A stretch of 30,403 nucleotides of DNA, from the IMG/VR virus record IMGVR_UViG_3300042691_020478, positions 1 through 30,403 of that record. The stretch is one strand, 5' to 3'. Below are positions 1,130 through 26,300 of this stretch, one piece after another. How positions within the stretch are numbered: position 1 is the stretch's first letter; every line of letters starts with the position of its first letter. Source of the DNA: a virus. The notes under the pieces are model-generated. The model had not been told where the DNA came from, ran no database searches, and saw only the letters and a program-made list of their open reading frames with translations. The position numbers were made by a program, and so were the translations under genes.

Positions 1130-4100
1130 ATGGCAGTAGACCTAAACATAAATCCGTATTACGACGATTTTGATGAGTTCAAGAACTTTCATCAGTTGCT
1201 TTTTAGACCTGGCTATGCGGTTCAAGCACGTGAACTGACTCAATTGCAGTCGATCATAAGTGATCAGATCAAGAAGTTTGGTAATCACATTTTCCAGCAA
1301 GGCTCCATTGTAGTTCCCGGAAATTCTTTTTTCGATCTTTACACACCCTACATCAAATTAGAGACATCATACAACAGCCAACCAGTAGATGGTACCCAGT
1401 TTGTTGGTAAAGTTGTAGTTGGAGACACTAGCGATGTTCGTGCCATTGTTAGAGCCTATGAGCCAGCAACATCTTCTAGTCCCCTAACGCTGTATTTGTC
1501 TTACTTGTCTGGTGGTGGAACAAACGGTGAGTTTTCAACCTTCCAGCCAACAGAAGAACTATTCCTTGAGTCTGATTCAACAACTCGTGCAACTGTTCAG
1601 ACTACTACGCCCACAGGCTATGGCAGTCTAGCATTCATCAAGACAGGTGTGTTCTTTGTAAACGGCAGATTTGTAACCGTACAAGATTCACAAGTAGTTA
1701 TCTCTAAGTACGATTCGGTTCCTTCTTGCAGAGTTCTTCTAAAGATTACCGAAGAAATTGTCACATCTAACGACGACGATTCTCTATTAGATCCAGCATC
1801 GGGCTCTTACAACTTTGCGGCTCCCGGTGCAGATAGACTAAAGGTAAGCCTAACTCTTACCTCTCTACCACTTGCAACAGCCATAAATGATGACTATGTT
1901 GAAATCATGCGCTTCAATGCGGGTGTGTTGGAGGAACATGCTCGTTTTCCAAAATACTCAGAGCTAGAAAAAACTCTTGCCCGCAGAACCTATGATGAGT
2001 CTGGTGATTACATCGTTAATGGTTTCAAGTTGGCTATCACCGAGCACCTAAAGACTTCTTTCAACGACGGTCTTCTAACAGAAGAAAATGGTGGTGATAG
2101 AGATAAGTTTGTATACAAGGTAAACCCAGGTAAGGCATACGTTAGAGGGTTTGAGGTAGAAAAAATTGCAGATTCAACCATAGTTGTTGATAAAGCAAGA
2201 ACAGAACCCGATCACGTAAAGATCAAAGATCATTCCATTCAACCATTCTATGGTCAGTACATCTTTGTAACTAACCTAGTCAAGCTACCAAACTTTAGAC
2301 AAAGAGAAAAAGTTGACTTGTGGTCAGCTTCAACAGGCGGTGCCAAGATTGGTGAGATGTATGTTTACGCAATAGACTTGCTTGAGGGTGACGCAACAGG
2401 TCAAAACGCTGTTTACAAATTGTACTATCATGACGTTTCCTTGACTGGTTCAAACAAACTAAGTGATGTTGGAAGAATTGTATATGGTTCTGGTGGTTCT
2501 GCGAAAGTTCTAACAAGATACAATGTAATCAATCTAGATAAAGATTTCTTTGACGCCGAGGATTCACCACAGGACACAATTACAAACACCGGCAGCACTC
2601 GCACCGCAAAGGTACATCGTTTTGTTAGAGCAGATTCAACACTGTTTGTATTTCGACATGACTCAACAAAGCAGATTCCCACAGATGGTGACTTTATAAC
2701 AGGTTCCGGTGTAAACACACCAACAGCAACAATCAAAGCAACAACAGCTACTGTTCAACAAGGTTCTCTTCCTATGTTGAGGGTTGATGTTGATTCATTA
2801 AAGAGCATAAAGAATCTAGCATCAACATACGCAGATTTAGAATACTACGCTTGGACTATTGTATCTATCACTACAGATGGTTCTGGTGATGGCACAGTTT
2901 CAATTTCAAACGCCACATTTGTTACTCCCGACACCGGTATTGTGGTAGCTTCGGGTGCTAGTGGAATTGTATCTCCTTCAAAGATCAGCTTGTTGTCACC
3001 AACAATTCTAAAAATTACCGCTGGTCCTGCAAGTGAGACAGTAAATGTCCTAGTACAAGTCAAGAAAACCGCTGTTTCACCAAAGAGCAAAGTTCTTACA
3101 ACGCTAACGCTAACCAACGTTGTGCCTTCAAGCAGCATATCACTTACTGTGTGTGATGTTTACGAAGTGACCAGCATTTTTGATGCATCAGGAAACGATG
3201 TGTCGGGTGAATTTGCTTTTGATAATGGTCAAAGAGACTTTTACTACGGAATTGGTGCTCTAAATCTAATCGGCGAACTGCCTACATCAAACCTAACAAT
3301 TCAACTGAAATATTTTGCCCACACAGGAAGTGGCGACTTCTTTAGTGTTGATTCATACGCTACTCTTGGTGCTGATTACATAAGCAAAGTACCAAGTTAC
3401 AAATCAACAAACAATAATAGAATCTATAACCTAAAAGAACAATTAGACTTTAGACCAAGAGTAGACAACTCAACAGGTCTATTCAGTTCGGGTGGCGCTT
3501 CTCTATCAGACTTCCCTGTTGTTGAAAGTCTTCTATCAACACCTGTTCAGTTTTATGTTCCAAGAATTGACTCAATTGTTCTTTACAAAAATGGATCTTT
3601 GCAGGTAATTGCAGGCGAGCCGGGAGAAAGACCAAAGAAGCCTAACATTCCATCTGATTCATTAGAATTGTATACTTGTTTTGTCCCTGCATATACTACT
3701 TTTGCAAAGGGTGTAACCAGTTTGTTGACTAGCACAAAGCGTTACACCATGAAGGACATTTCGGGTCTTGAGGGAAGAATCTCGAGCATTGAGCGCCTAT
3801 CAATTCTAAACAATGATGAGAGTAGCATCGTAAGAAAAGATGTAATTGATCCAATAACTGGTTTGAACAGATTCAAGTCTGGCTATCTTGTTGATAACTT
3901 CACAAATCCGTTTGTAATGATGGATATGTCTAAAAGTCCTAATGCCGCAAGTTTCTTTAACCAAAAGTTCAGTTCTTCAAGAGAAGGATTTGTTGCGTTG
4001 GCTAATTTGTTTACTGCAAACGGATCGCAAAATTATCAGAATACAAACGGACAGATCACACTACCCTACACAGAGACTCAGTTTATAGGTCAGACTTCAT

Positions 4101-4744
4101 CGTCAAAGACAAACACACTAAACCCATTCAGCGCAATTTCATGGGAGGGTGTGTTGAAAGTGGTGTCAAACTTTGATCTTACCGTACAAACACCAAGACG
4201 AGATGAAGTTACTGTTGTTCCTGTTGAACAACCTCCTTTGAATGTTGAAACAATAGTTGTGTCACCACCAGCGGTTGTTACTATTGCCGAAAGCCAACCA
4301 ATTGAAGAAATTATTCCACCGCCCCCACCACCCCCACCACAAGAACCACAATGGGTTGAAGTAGAAGTAGTAGCCGGAAATGTTGGTTTAGACAATTACT
4401 CTAATAGTGACACGGTGACAGTGACTGTATCACAGACAACCGTTGATACATTTAGAACTATTACAAACAATGCAACAACATTTAGTGCAGATATAGATGT
4501 AGACAATTGGGCAAGAGCTTATGCCGCTGCTTTGGTTGCAACAACGACCAAAGATTCTGCTGAATGGAAGAGAGCAGTAAATAATGCTGTTGATTATCTA
4601 AGAGCAGAGGGGTTCCAAGCAGAATGGGAAATGGATCCATCATGGCAACCCGGCAAAACAACTTCAACTCGTGGAATTTATGACATTCTTGATGACGCGT
4701 ACAATGCGGTTCTAAATTCTGGAATACGATACGAGGGTCGCTAA
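1130..4744 (+). CDS. DUF4815 virion structural protein (1204 aa)
   Basis: Residues about 8-60 carry the DUF4815 signature: NPYYDDFD, FRPGYAVQARELTQLQ and an amphipathic QIKKFGNHIFQQGSIVVPG. Known: DUF4815 proteins are large tail or baseplate-associated structural proteins of T4-like marine phages; their exact virion position is mostly unassigned. The body is beta-rich. Near the C-terminus eight consecutive prolines (residues 1063-1070) separate the body from a terminal domain of about 130 residues containing an Asp/Trp-rich helical stretch (DSAEWKRAVNNAVDYLRAEG). No Shine-Dalgarno precedes the ATG; it lies 3 bases after the gp8-like stop, suggesting coupled translation. The following 47-base gap is AT-rich and contains two CTAAATA boxes. 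Confident as a structural protein, unsure of its place in the particle. Confidence 0.8.
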   Translation: MAVDLNINPYYDDFDEFKNFHQLLFRPGYAVQARELTQLQSIISDQIKKFGNHIFQQGSIVVPGNSFFDLYTPYIKLETSYNSQPVDGTQFVGKVVVGDTSDVRAIVRAYEPATSSSPLTLYLSYLSGGGTNGEFSTFQPTEELFLESDSTTRATVQTTTPTGYGSLAFIKTGVFFVNGRFVTVQDSQVVISKYDSVPSCRVLLKITEEIVTSNDDDSLLDPASGSYNFAAPGADRLKVSLTLTSLPLATAINDDYVEIMRFNAGVLEEHARFPKYSELEKTLARRTYDESGDYIVNGFKLAITEHLKTSFNDGLLTEENGGDRDKFVYKVNPGKAYVRGFEVEKIADSTIVVDKARTEPDHVKIKDHSIQPFYGQYIFVTNLVKLPNFRQREKVDLWSASTGGAKIGEMYVYAIDLLEGDATGQNAVYKLYYHDVSLTGSNKLSDVGRIVYGSGGSAKVLTRYNVINLDKDFFDAEDSPQDTITNTGSTRTAKVHRFVRADSTLFVFRHDSTKQIPTDGDFITGSGVNTPTATIKATTATVQQGSLPMLRVDVDSLKSIKNLASTYADLEYYAWTIVSITTDGSGDGTVSISNATFVTPDTGIVVASGASGIVSPSKISLLSPTILKITAGPASETVNVLVQVKKTAVSPKSKVLTTLTLTNVVPSSSISLTVCDVYEVTSIFDASGNDVSGEFAFDNGQRDFYYGIGALNLIGELPTSNLTIQLKYFAHTGSGDFFSVDSYATLGADYISKVPSYKSTNNNRIYNLKEQLDFRPRVDNSTGLFSSGGASLSDFPVVESLLSTPVQFYVPRIDSIVLYKNGSLQVIAGEPGERPKKPNIPSDSLELYTCFVPAYTTFAKGVTSLLTSTKRYTMKDISGLEGRISSIERLSILNNDESSIVRKDVIDPITGLNRFKSGYLVDNFTNPFVMMDMSKSPNAASFFNQKFSSSREGFVALANLFTANGSQNYQNTNGQITLPYTETQFIGQTSSSKTNTLNPFSAISWEGVLKVVSNFDLTVQTPRRDEVTVVPVEQPPLNVETIVVSPPAVVTIAESQPIEEIIPPPPPPPPQEPQWVEVEVVAGNVGLDNYSNSDTVTVTVSQTTVDTFRTITNNATTFSADIDVDNWARAYAAALVATTTKDSAEWKRAVNNAVDYLRAEGFQAEWEMDPSWQPGKTTSTRGIYDILDDAYNAVLNSGIRYEGR

Positions 4745-7469: not shown

Positions 7470-10400
7470 ATGGCAAATATTGTTTATAGAGGCGGGGTTG
7501 CACCTTCTGAAAATAATAGTACACAATTCAAAGGCACGCCTCTTACAAATAACCAAATTGATGGTAACTTCTTGGGCTTGCAGAATGAAATTCTGACAAA
7601 GGCACCAACAAATTCTCCTTCTCTTACTGGGACTCCAATTGCTCCCACCGCTGCTGCTGGTACAAACACTACACAGATTGCAACTACAGAATTTGTCATA
7701 GCAGAGAGAACCAACACAGCGACTCTTACAAACAAGACGCTAACCAACCCAACAATCAATGCTGGTAGTGGAACTGTAGTTCTTCCGGCAGCAACTGCTC
7801 CTGCACAAACAGCAGAGGGTTCTGTTGTTTGGGATAGTGATGATGATCTACTCACCGTGGGTACTGGTGCTGGTAGAAAGACAATGGTTGATACCGATTC
7901 AACACAGAGTCTAACAAATAAGACAGTAAACAGACTAACAATTACTGCTCCTGCTACAAGTGCAACACTAACCATTGCAAACGGCAAGACATTTACTCTA
8001 AACAACACGCTTACATTCAGTGGTACTGATGCTTCGAGTGTTGCGTTTGGTGCGGGTGGCACTGTTGCTTATCAGGGTGGAACCCTAGCACAGTTTGCTG
8101 CAACTACATCTGCACAACTAGCGGGCGTAATTTCCGATGAGACTGGTACAGGTGCACTAGTTTTTGCATCATCACCAACTCTTGTTACTCCCATCATTAA
8201 CACAAGCCTAAGAGTTCCTATTGTTTACGGTTCAAACGTAAACTCAGCAAACCTAACAATATCATCAACCAGTGCTGGAACAAAGGGTGCAGTTCTTCTT
8301 GGTGAAACTGGTGATACAGTTCGTCTAAACACAACAACAAACGGTGTACTGACTACGTCTAGTGCAAATGGTACTCTAACAGTTGACACTGGCACTTACT
8401 ACAAGGCAGGCGGCACTGACATCGCCATTGCCGACGGTGGTACTGGTTTAAGCACAACTCCTACAGCTGGTCAACTTCTAATTGGTACTAGTGCGAACAA
8501 CTACACACTGGCAACCATATCCCAGGGTTCCGGTATTAGTGTTTCAAGCACTTCGGGTAGCATCACTGTTGCAAACACGGGTGTAACAAGTCTCACAGGA
8601 ACTGCAAATAGAGTCACAGTAAGCGCATCTAGTGGTGCAGTAACATTGTCGGGTCCCCAGGACCTTCACTCTGCTGCAACACCATCATTTGTTCAGGTTA
8701 ACCTAACAAACGCGCCAACAAACGCGGGTCATGCAGCTACAAAGGCATATGTTGATAGCATTGCACAGGGTCTTGATGTAAAGCAATCTGCTCGTGCAGC
8801 CACAACAGCAAACATCACTCTTTCAGGTACACAGACAATTGATAACGTTGTTTTGGTTGCTGGTGATAGAGTTCTTGTAAAGAATCAAACAACAGCATCG
8901 CAGAACGGTATCTATGATGTTGCTGCGGGTGCATGGACACGTTCTATTGACATGGACGCTTGGTCCGAAGTTCCCGGTGCATTCGTATTCGTTGAAGAAG
9001 GTGATACACTAGCAGACACTGGTTGGGTAGCCACAGCAAACCAGGGCGGTACACTAGGCACAACCAACATTACATGGAACCAATTCTCGGGCGCTGGCAC
9101 ATACACCGCTGGTGGTGGTATTGGTCTAACAGGAACCACCTTCAGCGTTGCTGCTGGTACTGGTCTAGTACAAGATGCCGATGGCATTTCACACGCCGAT
9201 ACATCATCACAAGCATCAGTAGACAACAGTGGCAATACGTTCGTCCAAGACATCACACTTGATGGATTTGGTCATATTACTGGAATTGCGTCAGCCACAG
9301 TAACAATTGGTGATGGTGCAATGACCGTCACTGCTGGTGCGGGTCTAACAGGTGGTGGTCAATTAGGGACTGCTAATCAGTCTGGTGCATCTAGCATTAC
9401 TATTAGCCACGCCGATACAAGTTCTGTAACCGATCTAACTGCTGCGACAAATACCTTTATTGCAGCCCAGACATACGACACTTATGGTCATGTGCTAACA
9501 CGCACAACCGGAGCAGTAGACTTTACGGTTGCTGCTAACCATGCCTTCCAAAACTTTGCTATTGGTGCAGATTCTGGTTACACATGGGGCGTTGCCAACA
9601 CAAACACAACCCAAGCAGCCGAGTCTAGCAGTGACACATTGACCCTTGTCAATGGCGGTGGTATCAATCTGTATACCAACACAGTCGCGGGCACTGATGC
9701 TATTAGAATTGAACACGCGGACACTAGTTCTGCTGCTGGTTTCACTGTTGACAATGGTGTAAACACATTCATTCAAGATATCACTGTCAGCGTAGATACA
9801 TATGGTCACGTAACCACATCAACAATCACTTCTGCTGGTGTTGACTTTACTGTTGCCGCAAACCACGCATTCCAAAACTTTGCCATTGGAACTGACTCCG
9901 GGTATACCTGGGGTGCTGCTAACACAAATACCACACAGGCTGCCGAGTCAAGCTCGGATACACTGACTCTGGTAAACGGTGGTGGTATCAATTTGTACAC
10001 CAACACCGTTGCTGGTACAGATGCCGTTAGAATTGAACACGCGGATACGAGCTCAGTAACCAACCTAACCGCTTCTGGTAGAACATATGTAACTGGTCTA
10101 ACATTTGACACCTATGGTCACGTTACTGGTTATACAACAGGCACAGAGACTGTAGTAGATACAAACACAACCTACTCAAAAGCAACCAGCACTGTATTGG
10201 GTCTAGTTGAGTTGGGTTCTGACACCGTACAGACTGTTGCTGCCAACGCAGTAACAACAACCGCAAGCAGAAGCTATGCTATTCAGCTCAATGCAGCTGA
10301 TCAGATGGTGGTAAACGTACCCTGGACAGACACAGTACCAAACAATGGCACATTGACTCTTGCAGTATCTGGTACTGGTCTAAGCGGAAGCGCATCGTTT

Positions 10401-10805
10401 ACAGCAAACCAGAGCACAGCATCCACATTCACAGTAACCAGCAATGCAACATCAGCGAACACAGTAAGCACAATTGTTGCTCGTGATGCTAATGGTGACT
10501 TTGCCGCAGGGGTTGTCAATGCCACTGACTTCAACTCAACATCAGATGCGAGATTGAAGGAAAATATTTCCGGCATCTCGGGCATTGATCTACTAAATAA
10601 TCTACACCCAGTTCAATTCAACTGGAAAGATTCGGGCAAGAAGTCATACGGTTTGATTGCCCAGGAAATTGAGAACATTCTACCAGAATTGGTAAACGAA
10701 AGAGAAGACGGCATGAAGGGTGTTTCATACATTCCAATCATTGCCATGCTAGTAGACGCTGTAAAGAAACTAGAATCTAGAGTAAAAGAACTAGAAACTA
10801 AATAA
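7470..10805 (+). CDS. Long tail fibre with C-terminal self-cleaving Peptidase_S74 chaperone (1111 aa)
   Basis: N-terminus: LTNNQIDGNF, a virion-attachment motif of myovirus fibres; then SLTGTPIAPT...TQIATTEFV and TLTNKTL shaft motifs. Residues about 434-545 are a common fibre domain (GLDVKQSARAATT, GDRVLVKNQT, QNGIYDV, W...FVFVEEG). Residues about 560-910 hold repeats of HADTSS plus T-F-D-x-YGHVT strands, including a 71-residue block repeated twice (residues 684-754 and 792-862). Residues 1025-1111 are a Peptidase_S74 intramolecular chaperone: SDARLKENI, then YGLIAQE and LPELV, and a closing coiled coil (VDAVKKLESRVKELE). Known: S74 domains drive trimerisation and cut themselves off with a Ser/Lys pair five residues apart; here S1025 and K1030 fit, releasing 87 residues. 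Likely a trimeric fibre binding host surface glycans or proteins. The start lies 6 bases after the previous stop with only a weak AGG. Confidence 0.9.
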   Translation: MANIVYRGGVAPSENNSTQFKGTPLTNNQIDGNFLGLQNEILTKAPTNSPSLTGTPIAPTAAAGTNTTQIATTEFVIAERTNTATLTNKTLTNPTINAGSGTVVLPAATAPAQTAEGSVVWDSDDDLLTVGTGAGRKTMVDTDSTQSLTNKTVNRLTITAPATSATLTIANGKTFTLNNTLTFSGTDASSVAFGAGGTVAYQGGTLAQFAATTSAQLAGVISDETGTGALVFASSPTLVTPIINTSLRVPIVYGSNVNSANLTISSTSAGTKGAVLLGETGDTVRLNTTTNGVLTTSSANGTLTVDTGTYYKAGGTDIAIADGGTGLSTTPTAGQLLIGTSANNYTLATISQGSGISVSSTSGSITVANTGVTSLTGTANRVTVSASSGAVTLSGPQDLHSAATPSFVQVNLTNAPTNAGHAATKAYVDSIAQGLDVKQSARAATTANITLSGTQTIDNVVLVAGDRVLVKNQTTASQNGIYDVAAGAWTRSIDMDAWSEVPGAFVFVEEGDTLADTGWVATANQGGTLGTTNITWNQFSGAGTYTAGGGIGLTGTTFSVAAGTGLVQDADGISHADTSSQASVDNSGNTFVQDITLDGFGHITGIASATVTIGDGAMTVTAGAGLTGGGQLGTANQSGASSITISHADTSSVTDLTAATNTFIAAQTYDTYGHVLTRTTGAVDFTVAANHAFQNFAIGADSGYTWGVANTNTTQAAESSSDTLTLVNGGGINLYTNTVAGTDAIRIEHADTSSAAGFTVDNGVNTFIQDITVSVDTYGHVTTSTITSAGVDFTVAANHAFQNFAIGTDSGYTWGAANTNTTQAAESSSDTLTLVNGGGINLYTNTVAGTDAVRIEHADTSSVTNLTASGRTYVTGLTFDTYGHVTGYTTGTETVVDTNTTYSKATSTVLGLVELGSDTVQTVAANAVTTTASRSYAIQLNAADQMVVNVPWTDTVPNNGTLTLAVSGTGLSGSASFTANQSTASTFTVTSNATSANTVSTIVARDANGDFAAGVVNATDFNSTSDARLKENISGISGIDLLNNLHPVQFNWKDSGKKSYGLIAQEIENILPELVNEREDGMKGVSYIPIIAMLVDAVKKLESRVKELETK
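9519..10055 (+). repeat. Two 213-bp tandem-type repeats in the S74 fibre gene (9519-9731 and 9843-10055)
   Basis: The two copies encode 71 residues each beginning DFTVAANHAFQNFAIG and ending RIEHADTSS. By hand alignment without gaps, 3 residues differ (A/T, V/A, I/V). At codon level 40 of the 71 codons differ silently and 28 are identical. They are separated by 111 bases (37 codons), so the period is 324 bases. Confidence 0.9.
10798..10805 (+). promoter_or_regulatory. Possible weak late-promoter-like box CTAAATAA overlapping stop codon
   Basis: CTAAATAA overlaps the TAA stop of the S74 fibre gene, 32 bases before the ATG at 10837. It differs from NATAAATA at one key base. The overlapping stop codon makes a chance match likely, so support is low. 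Confidence 0.15.
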
Positions 10806-13870: not shown

Positions 13871-14362
13871 ATGGAAATTAGAATTAGAGACACAGGTCAA
13901 GTAATGTTTGAAGGCGAATTTCGTGCCTATCAAAGAGCCAACGGCGGGCCAACCTGGGAACAAACAACACCAGAAATTCTCGACTCTTTGGGAGCCGATG
14001 TTGTTTTTGAGGGACCCCAAGCAACAGGTGGTACAGTGTATCAATACTCCATGCGCCAGGGTGTTGAACAACAAGCCGATGGCAAGTGGTACACTAAATA
14101 TGTACTTGGTCCGGTATTTGTTGACACAGAGCAAGCAACTGCTGCCGAACAAGAAATACAGTACAAAGCACTAAAAGACGAAGAGCAAGCAAGAATGATT
14201 CGCACCGAGAGAAATCTAAAGCTCAACGAAACTGATTGGACACAGGTACTTGATGCTCCTGTTGACAAAGATGCATGGGCAGCTTACCGACAGGCATTGC
14301 GTGATATTACTGCTCAGCCCGGATTTCCGTGGGAAATTTCTTGGCCTGTAAAACCAGAATAA
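13871..14362 (+). CDS. Tail fibre assembly chaperone, Phage_tail_APC type (163 aa)
   Basis: An AAGGAA ribosome site lies 6 bases before the ATG. The N-terminal half (IRDTGQVMFEGEFRAYQ, NGGPTWEQTTPEIL, GADVVFEGPQA) is a beta region; residues about 90-125 are a charged helix; the C-terminal end NETDWTQVLDAPVDKDAWAA then YRQALRDIT, a proline-rich PGFPWEI and WPVKPE match the Phage_tail_APC family. Known: these proteins help fold or attach tail fibres and are usually encoded next to the fibre they serve. Here the neighbours are the DUF7483 adhesin upstream and a propeller-tipped fibre downstream. Its last 28 codons plus the following 16 bases or so are duplicated at the end of the gene at 16147. 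Confidence 0.85.
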   Translation: MEIRIRDTGQVMFEGEFRAYQRANGGPTWEQTTPEILDSLGADVVFEGPQATGGTVYQYSMRQGVEQQADGKWYTKYVLGPVFVDTEQATAAEQEIQYKALKDEEQARMIRTERNLKLNETDWTQVLDAPVDKDAWAAYRQALRDITAQPGFPWEISWPVKPE

Positions 14363-16146: not shown

Positions 16147-16392
16147 ATGGATCTCACATACGAAGAAACAAGAGCGCTGCTTCTAGCTGAAGTTGAAACA
16201 CATCGTAAAGAGATTGAAGCTCGCGCCCGCAGAAGCGGAGAACTTGCCAGGTCTGATATTGACATAATTCGCTCATATGAATCAGGGTCTCCAGTACCAC
16301 AAGAATTGGCAGCTTACCGACAGGCACTACGTGATATTACTCTACAACCCAGATTTCCCAACGAAATAGTTTGGCCTGTAAAACCAGAATAA
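16147..16392 (+). CDS. Short tail fibre assembly chaperone, reduced Phage_tail_APC protein (81 aa)
   Basis: AAGGAA precedes the ATG. The last 27 residues or so (AAYRQALRDIT, QPRFPNEI, WPVKPE) match the end of the 163-residue chaperone encoded at 13871, in both protein and DNA. The N-terminal 50 residues (DLTYEETRALLLAEVETHRK, IEARARRSGELARSD) are a charged helix that does not resemble the beta region of the longer protein. Inferred: a paralogue that kept the fibre-binding end and lost, or replaced, the N-terminal part; the intact start, ribosome site and stop argue that it is expressed and not debris. It sits directly after the propeller-tipped fibre gene, its probable client. Confidence 0.75.
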   Translation: MDLTYEETRALLLAEVETHRKEIEARARRSGELARSDIDIIRSYESGSPVPQELAAYRQALRDITLQPRFPNEIVWPVKPE

Positions 16393-17096: not shown

Positions 17097-20036
17097 ATGC
17101 CAAGTATCAATGGTGTTCGTATTCTAGATAGTATAGAATCTGGTACAACAAATTCTGCTGCCCTACAATCATTGCTTGGTACTGCAAGCAATGTAGGTGC
17201 ATGGCAGAGCCTTCTAGCAAGCCAACCTCACGTTGAAAGAATTCTAGAGTCAGATTCTGCTTGGGCAAGTACGCGAGATTCTGATTTGGCTCTACAAACA
17301 CTTGCCAACTCAAAGAATGGTTTTGCTGGTTTGTACAACAACAAAACCCGATTGAGCAATCTACTCAGCAATCGTACACGCATGCAGTACGCAATGTCGA
17401 ATGCTCCGTACATGAACCAGAACTATACGACAAATGCATCTTGGGTTGGCAAGAATACTGGATTTGGTTCGTCAGCCGCGGTAAGAGACATAGTTGGTGT
17501 TACTACGGTTGGTACTGGAACATTTTACACTATTGTTGGTGACTTTGGAAAGATTGCAACTTCTCCTGACAGTAATACATGGACACAACGAAACAGTGGT
17601 TTTGGTGACAGCAATATTGATGCTATAGAATATGGAAATTCTCTTTATGTGATAGCAGGTGATGACGGAAAGATCAGCACATCTTCTGACAGCATTACAT
17701 GGACATCAAGAACAAGTAATTTTGGAACAAGTCTCATAAGAGCAGTTGCGTATGCAAACAGCCTATGGGTTGCTGTAGGTAATGATGGAAAAATCAGTAC
17801 ATCTACCGACGGCACAACTTGGACTGCAAGAACATCACAGTTTGGTACTACAAGTATAGCAAGCGTTGCTTATGGAAATGGTACTTGGGTGGCTGTTGGT
17901 GATGATGGAAAGATCAGTACATCTACTGATGGCTTAACTTGGACTGCAAGAACAAGTGGTGTAACAACTAACTTGAATGCCGTAATATACGGCGATAAAT
18001 TTTTTGCTGTTGGAGATAATGGTATAAATTTGTATTCTTCCGCAGGCACTTCTTGGACAAGTGGCGGAACCACTAACAGCAGCTACAAACTAGTTGGGGC
18101 TTCATATAAATTTGGTTATTATTATGCGTGTGGCGTCGCCAACACAACCACAGTTATTTATTATACAAACACCTCATTCCCTGGCTGGTCGTCTACTGGT
18201 TCCATTTCTTCAATAATAGGTTGTAATGTTAAGCTTGTATCTGGTACACAAATTATTTGTGGTACTTCTGGAAACTTATATCTTGAACTTAAACAGCTTG
18301 ACTATGTTAATAGCATAGCAAGCATTGTCACCGGTGGCTATAATTTACAATGCGTTGCGTATGGTAATGGAAAGTGGTTATTTTCAACAGGACAAAATTC
18401 ATCTACAGGATTATGGGTTTTTAATAGCTCACCACCAGCTGGTGGTAGCCCAACACAATACCTTTCTGGTAATCCAATTTATACCATAGAATACTTGAAT
18501 AACAGTTTATTTTTGGCTGGGGGCAACGGTGGATTTCTTAGAACTTCAACAGACGCAGCTACTTGGACGTCAAGAACAACAAATACAGCCCAGAATATCT
18601 ATGGTATGGCATATGGAAACGGAAAATATGTCATTGTAGGTAGTGGTGGAATGGCAAATACGTCCACAGACGGTATAACTTGGGGAACTCCAGTAACAGT
18701 TAGTACCGGTAATGAGTTGTCTAGCCTTGCTTTTGGTAATGGAATTTTTGTTGCTACCAGGAATACTTCCACAAATCAAATTGTAACATCAACAGATGGT
18801 GTTACTTGGAATACTGTGAATTTAAGTGGTTTCAGTGGTACTGGAGCAGGAACCGTATTTTTTGGAAATGGTTTGTTTGTTGTTGGTGGAGCTAGTGGCG
18901 GCTACATTGCTACTTCTACAAATGGTACTACTTGGACAGCTAGTGTAGCTGTCACCGGCGGATTTTCTGCGTATGGAAGAATTGGTGTATATGCAGATGG
19001 CGTATATATGCTTCCTAACTCTCAGGGTGGTATTTCATATTCTACAAATGGAGTTACTTGGACAACAGAGACAATTAGCGTTGACTATAATAGACCCGCC
19101 GCACTAGCTGTGGGAGAAGGTTATGTAATTGGTGCCGGCAAATATACATCAGATAATGGTTGGTCAGGTGTTGCAAGGGTATTTGATTTGGTTGGCTCAG
19201 GGTGGGCAACTAAAACTACCGGTTTTTCAACTAGTAACGTACTACAATTAGAATTCGGAAATAGTCTATATGTAGCATCTGGTAGTAACGGTAGACTTTC
19301 AACATCTACTGATTTGACAACCTGGACACCCAGAGACAGTGCTTTTGGTAGTACTGATATTAACGATGTTACATATGCAAACAGCTTATGGGTCGCCGTA
19401 GGTCAAAGTGGTAAAATATCAACATCTACCGATGGCTTAACATGGACTGCAAGAACTAGTGGCACTGGTGACATTCTAAATTCAGTAGCATACGGTAATG
19501 GTATTTGGGTCGCAGTCGGTAACAGTGGTGCGCTGACAACTTCAATTAACGGCACAACTTGGACAGCAAGACTTAGTTCTCTTGGAATATCCGGCGCTGC
19601 ATATGAGGTAGTGTTTGCTAATAATCTTTTTGTTGTTGGTTGCGATGGCGGAGTTATAACAACTTCTCCAGATGGAATCAATTGGTCACCAACTACTAAT
19701 GGTGCTGGGGGCAATGTACGTTCTGTGGCTTATGGAAACGGATTATTTGTATCGGGAACTACTTCAGGACAAATTAGTACCTCAAATGATGGAGTAAGTT
19801 GGACTACACAAACAATTTATCCTTTGGGTAGCAGCACAATATCATCAATTGTTTATGGAAATGGTTTATGGATGGCAGTTGGTGGTGGTACCAAAGTAGC
19901 TACATCGACGGATGGATTAAACTGGCGTAGCAGTGATGTTGTTTCCACAAATAGCATCCCATCAGTAAATTCAGTTAACTATGCAAATGGTAACTTTATA
20001 ATTTGTGCTAATAATGGTCTATACTTGAACTATTGA
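17097..20036 (+). CDS. Giant beta-propeller adhesin with about 20 Asp-box-like blades (979 aa)
   Basis: AAGGAA precedes the ATG. Residues 1-110 form a helical, Leu/Ser/Asn-rich anchor (SAALQSLLGTASNVGAWQSL, ERILESDSAWASTRDSDLAL, MQYAMSNAPYMNQNY) found in no neighbour. From about residue 115 to the end run repeats of 40-45 residues of the form V-A-Y-G-N-G-x-W-V-A-V-G-x-x-G-K-I-S-T-S-T-D-G-x-T-W-T-A-R. I count about 20 positions, of which some 15 keep the (S/T)xDGxTW core; it is one residue shorter than the canonical Asp-box SxDxGxTW. Known: such repeats fold as beta-propellers, often binding glycans. Twenty blades exceed one normal propeller of 6-8 blades, so two or three propellers in series are likely. 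No catalytic residues recognised. Probably a receptor-binding tip; the small gene following at 2 bases may assist it. Confidence 0.75.
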   Translation: MPSINGVRILDSIESGTTNSAALQSLLGTASNVGAWQSLLASQPHVERILESDSAWASTRDSDLALQTLANSKNGFAGLYNNKTRLSNLLSNRTRMQYAMSNAPYMNQNYTTNASWVGKNTGFGSSAAVRDIVGVTTVGTGTFYTIVGDFGKIATSPDSNTWTQRNSGFGDSNIDAIEYGNSLYVIAGDDGKISTSSDSITWTSRTSNFGTSLIRAVAYANSLWVAVGNDGKISTSTDGTTWTARTSQFGTTSIASVAYGNGTWVAVGDDGKISTSTDGLTWTARTSGVTTNLNAVIYGDKFFAVGDNGINLYSSAGTSWTSGGTTNSSYKLVGASYKFGYYYACGVANTTTVIYYTNTSFPGWSSTGSISSIIGCNVKLVSGTQIICGTSGNLYLELKQLDYVNSIASIVTGGYNLQCVAYGNGKWLFSTGQNSSTGLWVFNSSPPAGGSPTQYLSGNPIYTIEYLNNSLFLAGGNGGFLRTSTDAATWTSRTTNTAQNIYGMAYGNGKYVIVGSGGMANTSTDGITWGTPVTVSTGNELSSLAFGNGIFVATRNTSTNQIVTSTDGVTWNTVNLSGFSGTGAGTVFFGNGLFVVGGASGGYIATSTNGTTWTASVAVTGGFSAYGRIGVYADGVYMLPNSQGGISYSTNGVTWTTETISVDYNRPAALAVGEGYVIGAGKYTSDNGWSGVARVFDLVGSGWATKTTGFSTSNVLQLEFGNSLYVASGSNGRLSTSTDLTTWTPRDSAFGSTDINDVTYANSLWVAVGQSGKISTSTDGLTWTARTSGTGDILNSVAYGNGIWVAVGNSGALTTSINGTTWTARLSSLGISGAAYEVVFANNLFVVGCDGGVITTSPDGINWSPTTNGAGGNVRSVAYGNGLFVSGTTSGQISTSNDGVSWTTQTIYPLGSSTISSIVYGNGLWMAVGGGTKVATSTDGLNWRSSDVVSTNSIPSVNSVNYANGNFIICANNGLYLNY
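17440..20036 (+). repeat. Beta-propeller blade repeats, period about 125-140 nt
   Basis: Blades with KI(S/A)TS-x-D-x-x-TWT are densest at both ends (about 17540-17960 and 19290-19940), and more degenerate in the middle (about 18050-18450). Two distant blades (17907-17960 and 19410-19463) encode the same 18 residues, GKISTSTDGLTWTARTSG, with 8 of 18 codons changed silently. Confidence 0.8.
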
Positions 20037-23349: not shown

Positions 23350-26300
23350 ATGCCAAATAAAGTTCTTCTGAAAAAGTCGTCTGTAGCGGCTAAGGTTCCT
23401 CTTGTTACAGATTTAGATTATGGTGAGCTTGCTCTAAATTATACAGACGGAAGACTCTACTACAAAGATGGTGCTAATGCAATACAGGTTATTGCATCAA
23501 CTGCATCAACATCCGGACAATTCACTGTTCCTAGTGTCATTTCTGTAAATTCTAGTACAGAGGCTTTACGCATCACTCAAATTGGTTCTGGTGATGCGTT
23601 AAGAGTAGAAGACGCGGCAAATCCCGACACAACACCTTTTAGAATAAGTAGCGATGGTTTGGTTCTTGTAGGAGGACCCCCAGTAATTGGTGGTGCAAGT
23701 ACATATCCCGTTTTGCAAGTTACTGGTTACGGCGATGGTTCAATAGGCGCAAATGCCGCTGCGATGGGCATAAATGGATTTCTTCCTTCTGGTGCTGGAG
23801 GATATTTTGCATTCAATCGTTCTAATTCTGCAACTGTTGGTACTAACGCAACAGTAGTAAATGGTGATCAAATTGGTAGAATTGTGTGGAGCGGTGCAGA
23901 TGGCACCAACTACATAAGAGCAGCTCAGATAAGTGTTGAAGTAGACGGAGTTCCGGGCACTAATTCAATGCCCGGTAGATTGATTTTTGCAACTACCGCA
24001 AGCGGGCAGACCAGCAGCACTGGTCGCATGGTAATCACAGGTGAAGGTATAGTTGGTATAGGAACAACTAACCCAGTTACAGGAACAAGGTTAAATATAG
24101 GTTCAACCTATCTATCAGCTGGAGGTTATTCCGCTGGTATATCTTTGACCGGAACTGTTCCAGTTGCTACAACTATTTCACATTCAAACTACGCATCACT
24201 TATTTATATTCAAGACCCTGGTTCTGCCGGAAATACAATTCCCAATGTAATACATTTTGAAACAACTCAGCCCAACGCATTTGTAAACACAGTAGTAACA
24301 AACCAAATTGGTTTTAGAGCTGGATCAAACCTAACGGGTGCTGCCAATAATTACGGATTTTATGGCAATATACCAAGTGGTACTGGTCGTTGGAACTTTT
24401 ATGCTGCTGGTACTGCCGACAACTATTTTGGTGGACCCATCAAGTTGGGTCAGACATACTATTCAAATATAGGTATAGGAATATTTTACGCTCCTGCTTC
24501 TGTTGCTGCTACAGGAATCTATCAAGATCCTACAATTAACAGTGCCACAACAAGCAGTTATACATTAAATAGTACGTATCCTACTACTGCAGCTGCTAGT
24601 TTTACACTCGGTACACTCACACACTATAATGCAAATCAAGGCACTCTGGGAGCAGGTTCAACAATAACCAATCAGTATGGATTTAGTGCTGGAGGCGGAT
24701 TAACTGGTGCCACAAATAATTACGGATTTTATGGCAATATACCAAGTGGTACTGGTCGTTGGAATTTTTATGCCAATGGTACCGCAAGCAACTACTTTGC
24801 TGGTAATGTAAACGTTGGAACAACTGGTGGTGATTTTTCTAGAACCTGGAGGTTTGTTGCTCGCCAGGACCAAAACGATGTATCACAGTTTGGGTTTATA
24901 AACGCCACGGTTGGTGCAAACGCAGCAGTACAAATTGCCAAGATAGGTGGTACTGGTAACAATTTCTTGAACTGGGCATTGTTCGATAACAATGGTGCAC
25001 CATATGACGCTTTCAACTATGGTTCCGCAGTAACACATGTTGTATGGACACTTGGTGGTTCGGAGAGATTGAGGGTCAACTCAACAGGAACTGTAAGCAT
25101 CGCGGGCGCACCACCCACTGCAACTATAACATCAAAACTCTACACCGCAAGTGATATTACACTAGCAGGTGCTAACAGATCTATTTTAGGTAATCTATAT
25201 TACGACACTGGTTGGAAATACACCGGTAACGGGTATGGATGGGGCATACGAGAAGACAATACGGGCAAAGTACAGTTCATAAGAGCGGGAAATAACACAG
25301 GCGGTGCAAACGCAGCTGCCACAGTAACTCTTTCAGATCTTATAACTCTAGATCTTGTAAACAATCGCATTGGTATGGGCACCAATGCGCCCGGTGCAAA
25401 ACTAGAGGTGTACGGTGATACAATACTAGGTGGTACCACAAGTGCTGGTAGAAGACTTAGCATAGACGCAAATGGTGTAGCTACTTTTAAGTACAATGAT
25501 AATAGCTTAGCTACTCTAATGAACTGGGATAACCTAGAGCTAGCTGCAGGTGCAAATCATGGTGTACTAATAAATTGTAGGTTTGGAACTGATGTTTCAC
25601 AAACACCTATCAATGCAGCTAGAATTGCAGTAGCCAAAGAACAGATTTGGACGAGCACCGCGACCACGCAAGATTCATACATGTCGTTCTCAACGACACT
25701 TGATGGAACTTTAGGTGAAAAAGTAAGAATAACAAGTTCCGGTAGTGTTGGTATTGGAACAACATCGCCGACAACTATTCTACACATCAACGATACCGCT
25801 GCCACAGGAACAGGATTAAGAGTCAGCGGCGGTGGCTCTGGAACAGCATTAGCAGTATTTGAGAGAACAGTTGGTGCTTCAGGAAGTTCTATAGAAATTA
25901 ACGCTTCATCAAATGATCCTCAAATAAAATTTGCTAGATCTGGTTCAGGAACTTATAATATTGGCGTTGATGAGGATGGGAGTTTAAGATTTGCGGCTAA
26001 TAACACTATTGGGCTTGCTAACGACAGAGTTGTCGTGACTTCTGGTGGTAATGTTGGTATTGGAACAACAGCACCCGGATACAAACTAGAAGTAAACGGA
26101 TCATTCGCGGCAACAACCAAGAGCTTCTTGATTACCCATCCAACCAAACCCAACATGAAACTGCGCCACGGATCCTTGGAAGGTCCCGAGCATGGTGTTT
26201 ATGTAAGAGGAAGATTGAAAGGAAAGGTTATTGAGTTGCCCGAGTACTGGACCAAACTAGTCGATCCCGATTCTATCACTGTGCAGTTGACCGCAATAGG

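Follow-up and report, generated by a model that had tools for sequence, protein, structure and literature searches.

The sequence analysed here, called the window, is the whole 30,403-base stretch of IMG/VR virus record IMGVR_UViG_3300042691_020478, a metagenomic contig from an uncultured virus. It contains a tail-fibre-like gene with two copies of a core unit, and linkers lie before, between and after them. The features are listed below together with their counterparts in a close relative, L001, and in two distant relatives, L002 and L003.

7470-10805, plus strand: tail-fibre-like gene, an open frame of 1111 aa that houses both copies; Peptidase_S74 intramolecular chaperone at the C terminus
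9408-9515, plus strand: linker before copy 1, HADTSS...DTYGHV; a linker of this type also lies ahead of the core in L001, L002 and L003
9516-9731, plus strand: core unit copy 1, 72 codons; orthologous to the sole unit of L001
9703-9721 (10027-10045 in the second copy), plus strand: longest identical DNA tract in the copy-versus-copy comparison, TTAGAATTGAACACGCGGA
9732-9839, plus strand: linker between the copies, after HADTSS, of the VDN..NTFIQDI..DTYGHVT type; unlike both outer linkers in length and sequence
9840-10055, plus strand: core unit copy 2, 72 codons; 96% identical to copy 1 in protein and 78% in DNA
10038-10136, plus strand: linker after copy 2, HADTSSVTNLTASGRTYV..GHVT; found directly after the single unit in L001

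The repeat pair and its gene

The C terminus of the 1111-aa protein matched PF13884 (Peptidase_S74) at residues 1025-1075 (Pfam, E=1.2e-13), and several PHROG tail-fibre families match the protein. The repeated unit itself matched no Pfam family. A PDB sequence search for solved structures of the unit returned weak matches only, the best of which was a pilin (E 0.013). AlphaFold2 modelled the unit poorly as a monomer (pLDDT 52), and a hairpin in the linker was the sole confident part.

In a repeat search of 8-12 kb, the copy 1/copy 2 pair was the largest family. The copies are separated by 108 bp (324 bp start-to-start) and share 78.2% nucleotide identity. Comparison of their 72 codons revealed 28 that were identical, 41 with silent changes and 3 with non-synonymous changes, leaving 69 residues the same. 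Identity of 96% over a block of 72 residues cannot be chance. An earlier note on this DNA had described 71 residues, of which 3 were replaced and 40 had silent codon changes, and a gap of 111 bases between the copies. Both descriptions hold exactly if the block is taken to start at 9519; it begins one codon earlier, with a valine codon (GTA/GTT), which gives 72 codons and the 108-bp gap.

Other frames of the window were also noted. Two tail-fibre-assembly-like proteins (phrog_4912) are encoded at 13871-14362 and 16147-16392, the second being much shorter and located directly after a fibre-like frame; their C-termini are similar (AYRQALRDIT.QP.FP.EI.WPVKPE). A 979-aa frame at 17097-20036 is made up of many short STSTDG.TWT-type repeats and had no PHROG match; we read it as sialidase/BNR-like. 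The product of 1130-4744 is a DUF4815 protein; 1505 phage records contain distant relatives of it, some of them annotated as VrlC/virulence-associated protein.

Silent saturation and protein-level constraint

The Nei-Gojobori method gave a pS of 0.79 between the copies, which is saturated and beyond correction, and a dN of 0.0345. With a pairwise codon model (maximum likelihood), dS was 5.8 and omega was 0.006. The lower bound on dS was ~1.55, taken as a profile drop of 1.92 log units that falls between the values computed at dS 1.5 and 2; omega was at most ~0.022. The copies thus combine a low dN/dS with saturated silent sites.

We compared these values with a null simulation in which synonymous codons for copy 2 were drawn independently from the usage of the same gene. 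Over the 69 same-residue codons, the 41 observed silent changes compare with 42.1 +/- 3.6 under independent codon choice. Because the silent count equals the independence expectation, the "scrambling" of the DNA represents full synonymous saturation and not an excess. The longest identical run between the copies was 19 nt, versus 14.0 +/- 3.2 in the null (P=0.08 for a run as long or longer), and by this measure no recent gene conversion patch was detected between them. An excess of silent divergence was also considered and was rejected by the simulation: the count was not above random and the identical tracts were not shortened.

Third-position GC content (GC3) was 0.43 and 0.46 in the two cores, versus 0.33 in the gene. 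In a post hoc comparison, both cores had the most atypical synonymous codon use in the gene (z ~-2.1 and -2.2); L001 showed this feature less strongly, and L002 and L003 did not show it. The atypical codon use of both cores could be a sign of import, and would then count against an old pair within the genome.

The orthologous gene of L001 (2297-5302, 1001 aa) differs from that of the window with a whole-gene dS of 0.23 and dN of 0.027. Constraint was checked INDEPENDENTLY: between the window and L001, omega was 0.014 over residues 545-755, a segment that includes copy 1 and excludes copy 2, compared with 0.088 in the part before it (residues 50-545) and 0.138 in the part after it (863-1111). 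The shaft stretch with the repeat is the most constrained of the three gene parts between orthologues, and this comparison shows the constraint independently of the copy-versus-copy comparison. Since the orthologue omega of 0.014 stands alongside a value of at most ~0.022 between the copies, ordinary purifying selection suffices for their protein identity, with no call for an additional cause. The constraint may plausibly stem from packing of a trimeric fibre shaft. The earlier note had offered two alternatives for the pair, the first of which was an old duplication under strong protein-level constraint. This alternative is supported by the saturated silent sites and by the same constraint seen there in L001, with separate acquisition still a rival.

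Loss or gain of a unit

L001 has a single unit and aligns to the window with a clean gap of exactly 108 residues. The protein sequence of its unit is identical to that of copy 1, and the Nei-Gojobori dS between the two is 0.17. The DNA of L001 is copy-1-like through diagnostic base 9702 and mostly copy-2-like from 9722, although three scattered copy-1-type bases lie past the junction (9725, 9733 and 9750), and the switch is therefore not perfectly clean. The interval in which L001 switches, 9703-9721, coincides with the longest identical tract of the copies, a location that fits unit loss by recombination in the L001 lineage. Duplication after the split of the window and L001 was excluded: the dS of the copies far exceeds the gene-wide value of 0.23, and thus the window did not acquire copy 2 in that way. 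Of the two routes to the present difference, loss in L001 takes one crossover and import into the window takes two. We infer that the direction was loss in L001, with the caveat that one close relative is not enough to tell loss apart from a later acquisition by the window. The one-copy relative suggests that silent divergence is not a block to recombination between the copies.

The distant relatives L002 and L003 each have one unit, with a copy-1-type linker before it and a VDN-type linker after it. A VDN-type linker thus follows the core in L002, L003 and window copy 1 alike, but not in L001. This core-linker adjacency weakly favours loss in L001; the argument is weak because linker types vary in order among phages. 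At the protein level, copy 1 is 96% identical to copy 2, 81% to the unit of L002 and 79% to that of L003, and on these values the two copies are sisters relative to L002 and L003. DNA identity to the distant relatives is much the same for the two copies (67-69%). Searches of IMG/VR, GTDB species genomes and GenBank phages turned up no other phage that has two units.

HADTSS...GHV linkers of several types were seen in varied order beside different cores in L001, L002, L003, L008, L009, L011, L059, L062 and L064-L069. Judged from the sequences, modules may be reshuffled at the HADTSS hinge among phages.

We consider it likely that the copies are an old module pair under strong protein-level purifying selection, that their silent sites have drifted to saturation, and that L001 probably lost a unit. 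One ancestral module would have given rise to both copies in the repetitive shaft of the tail-fibre protein. Under purifying selection the residues would have stayed the same as silent changes built up to saturation, and the "scrambling" would then reflect age plus constraint, with the age of the pair far beyond the split of the window and L001. Most likely, the diverged copies recombined in frame in the L001 lineage and a 108-residue module was dropped; the crossover would have occurred at the longest remaining identical tract, which extends into the conserved HADTSS hinge. A recombinase was presumably behind this loss.

In a less probable history, which we nevertheless take seriously, the copies diverged in separate phages, and an ancestor of the window imported a linker plus copy 2 (~324 bp) at the HADTSS hinge, with L001 keeping the original one-unit state. 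The order of linker types among phages indicates that reshuffling at the hinge occurs; for example, the QASVDN.GNTFVQDITLD linker precedes the core in the window but follows it in L002. The elevated GC3 of the cores relative to the gene is likewise consistent with import. However, the flanks on either side are orthologous to L001 with similar dS, and import would therefore require two crossovers instead of one. In addition, the codon use of copy 2 is not distinct from that of copy 1, and a search for a donor among IMG/VR, GTDB genomes and GenBank phages gave none. We favour an old pair with loss in L001.

Repeats in other fibres and known systems

We surveyed fibre genes in metagenomic and cultured-phage loci for repeats of at least 20 residues and at least 85% protein identity inside long frames. 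The survey yielded 25 pairs in the metagenomic loci and the window (the copy 1/copy 2 pair included) and 15 in the cultured-phage loci. Silent change reached at least 0.8 of the independence expectation in 11 of the 25 and 7 of the 15 pairs, counts that are not independent, as some pairs overlap or sit in one gene. Among cultured phages, BUCT-ZZ01 has a directly adjacent repeat of 67 residues (88% identity) with a ratio of observed to expected silent change of 1.01, and Xanthomonas phage X1 has a repeat of 30 residues (100%) with a ratio of 0.99. These results show that saturated, protein-conserved repeats are also present in other environmental phages and in cultured phages. Near-identical repeats were few, with a ratio of 0.2 or less in one pair of the metagenomic and window set and two of the cultured set. 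Their scarcity could be due to the disappearance of young repeats or, for the metagenomes, to short-read assembly. A literature search gave no paper dealing directly with natural silent divergence of repeats inside phage genes.

The window also contains an exact 50-bp repeat (24346-24395 and 24715-24764), which is embedded in a repeat of 123-residue period in a different gene. The flanks of this tract are silently diverged at 15 of 24 shared residues, while all 16 full codons inside it are identical (P=1.6e-6 if saturated). From these sequences, the tract looks like a recent local conversion-like patch in a diverged repeat. The earlier note had drawn a sharp contrast between this tract and the copy 1/copy 2 pair; the silent divergence of the tract's own flanks removes that contrast. 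Since the patch sits in a repeat that has diverged in the manner of the copy 1/copy 2 pair, the cases are not opposed.

A broader idea, which we regard as doubtful, is that fibre genes retain repeated shaft modules in the long term only after silent divergence, either via direct selection or via loss of young identical duplicates. If this were true, silent divergence would be a stabiliser that determines which fibre lengths persist.

For the pair itself, the earlier note's second alternative was that silent divergence had been favoured as protection from recombinational deletion. We find this very improbable. Protein identity with saturated codons at a 324-bp spacing is compatible with such selection, as is the scarcity of young near-identical long repeats in the survey; however, that scarcity is equally explained by survivorship (young repeats being deleted) and by short-read assembly. 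The silent changes are within random expectation (41 versus 42.1 +/- 3.6), the identical runs are not shortened (19 nt versus 14.0 +/- 3.2), and L001 has one unit fewer, with its switch in the longest identical tract. Moreover, lambda Red recombines genes with 22% divergence at high yield (PMC2327257), and the copies are 22% diverged, so any protection may be small. Least credible of all is an assembly artefact, in which the contig joins two phages or the repeat was collapsed in L001: both contigs are uncultured-virus assemblies, but the longest identical stretch shared by the copies is 19 bases, too short for collapse, the sequence on either side of the repeat is orthologous to L001 with a similar dS, no stop interrupts the reading frame, and cultured phages carry similar repeats.

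Together, the pair and its one-unit relative provide a measured example of module gain or loss in fibre shafts, in which modules are kept interchangeable by protein-level constraint and the site of the one-copy difference is marked by a short stretch of identical DNA at a conserved hinge. Repeats that are protein-identical with scrambled DNA require no special selection, as the count of silent changes is explained by independent codon choice. The copy 1/copy 2 case is ordinary in kind, yet it is a clean worked example.

The gene resembles modular, repeat-bearing fibres with S74 (endosialidase-type) chaperones in its C-terminal PF13884 domain, its reusable shaft modules and its PHROG tail-fibre matches; it differs from them in that the repeated unit matches no Pfam family or solved structure. 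In the distal tail-fibre locus of T-even phages, recombination reportedly takes place between conserved motifs, as described by Tetart et al. The present case is similar in that modules are gained, lost or swapped at conserved motifs inside fibre genes. In contrast to the T-even locus, it involves a shaft module between repeats and not an adhesin tip, and is drawn from two metagenomic contigs and not from crosses.

Recombination of 22%-diverged genes by lambda Red was of high yield (PMC2327257). This is the same divergence as that of the copies thought to have recombined in L001, and on that account such divergence need not block phage recombination, although the phage studied here is known from a 30-kb window that is only part of its genome. 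Persi, Wolf and Koonin (2016; PMC5120217) found that repeats within one protein evolve faster than orthologues. We made the same comparison of within-protein and orthologous divergence. In contrast to that trend, the omegas of the window are alike and very low (at most ~0.022 between the copies versus 0.014 between orthologues), with no acceleration between the copies.
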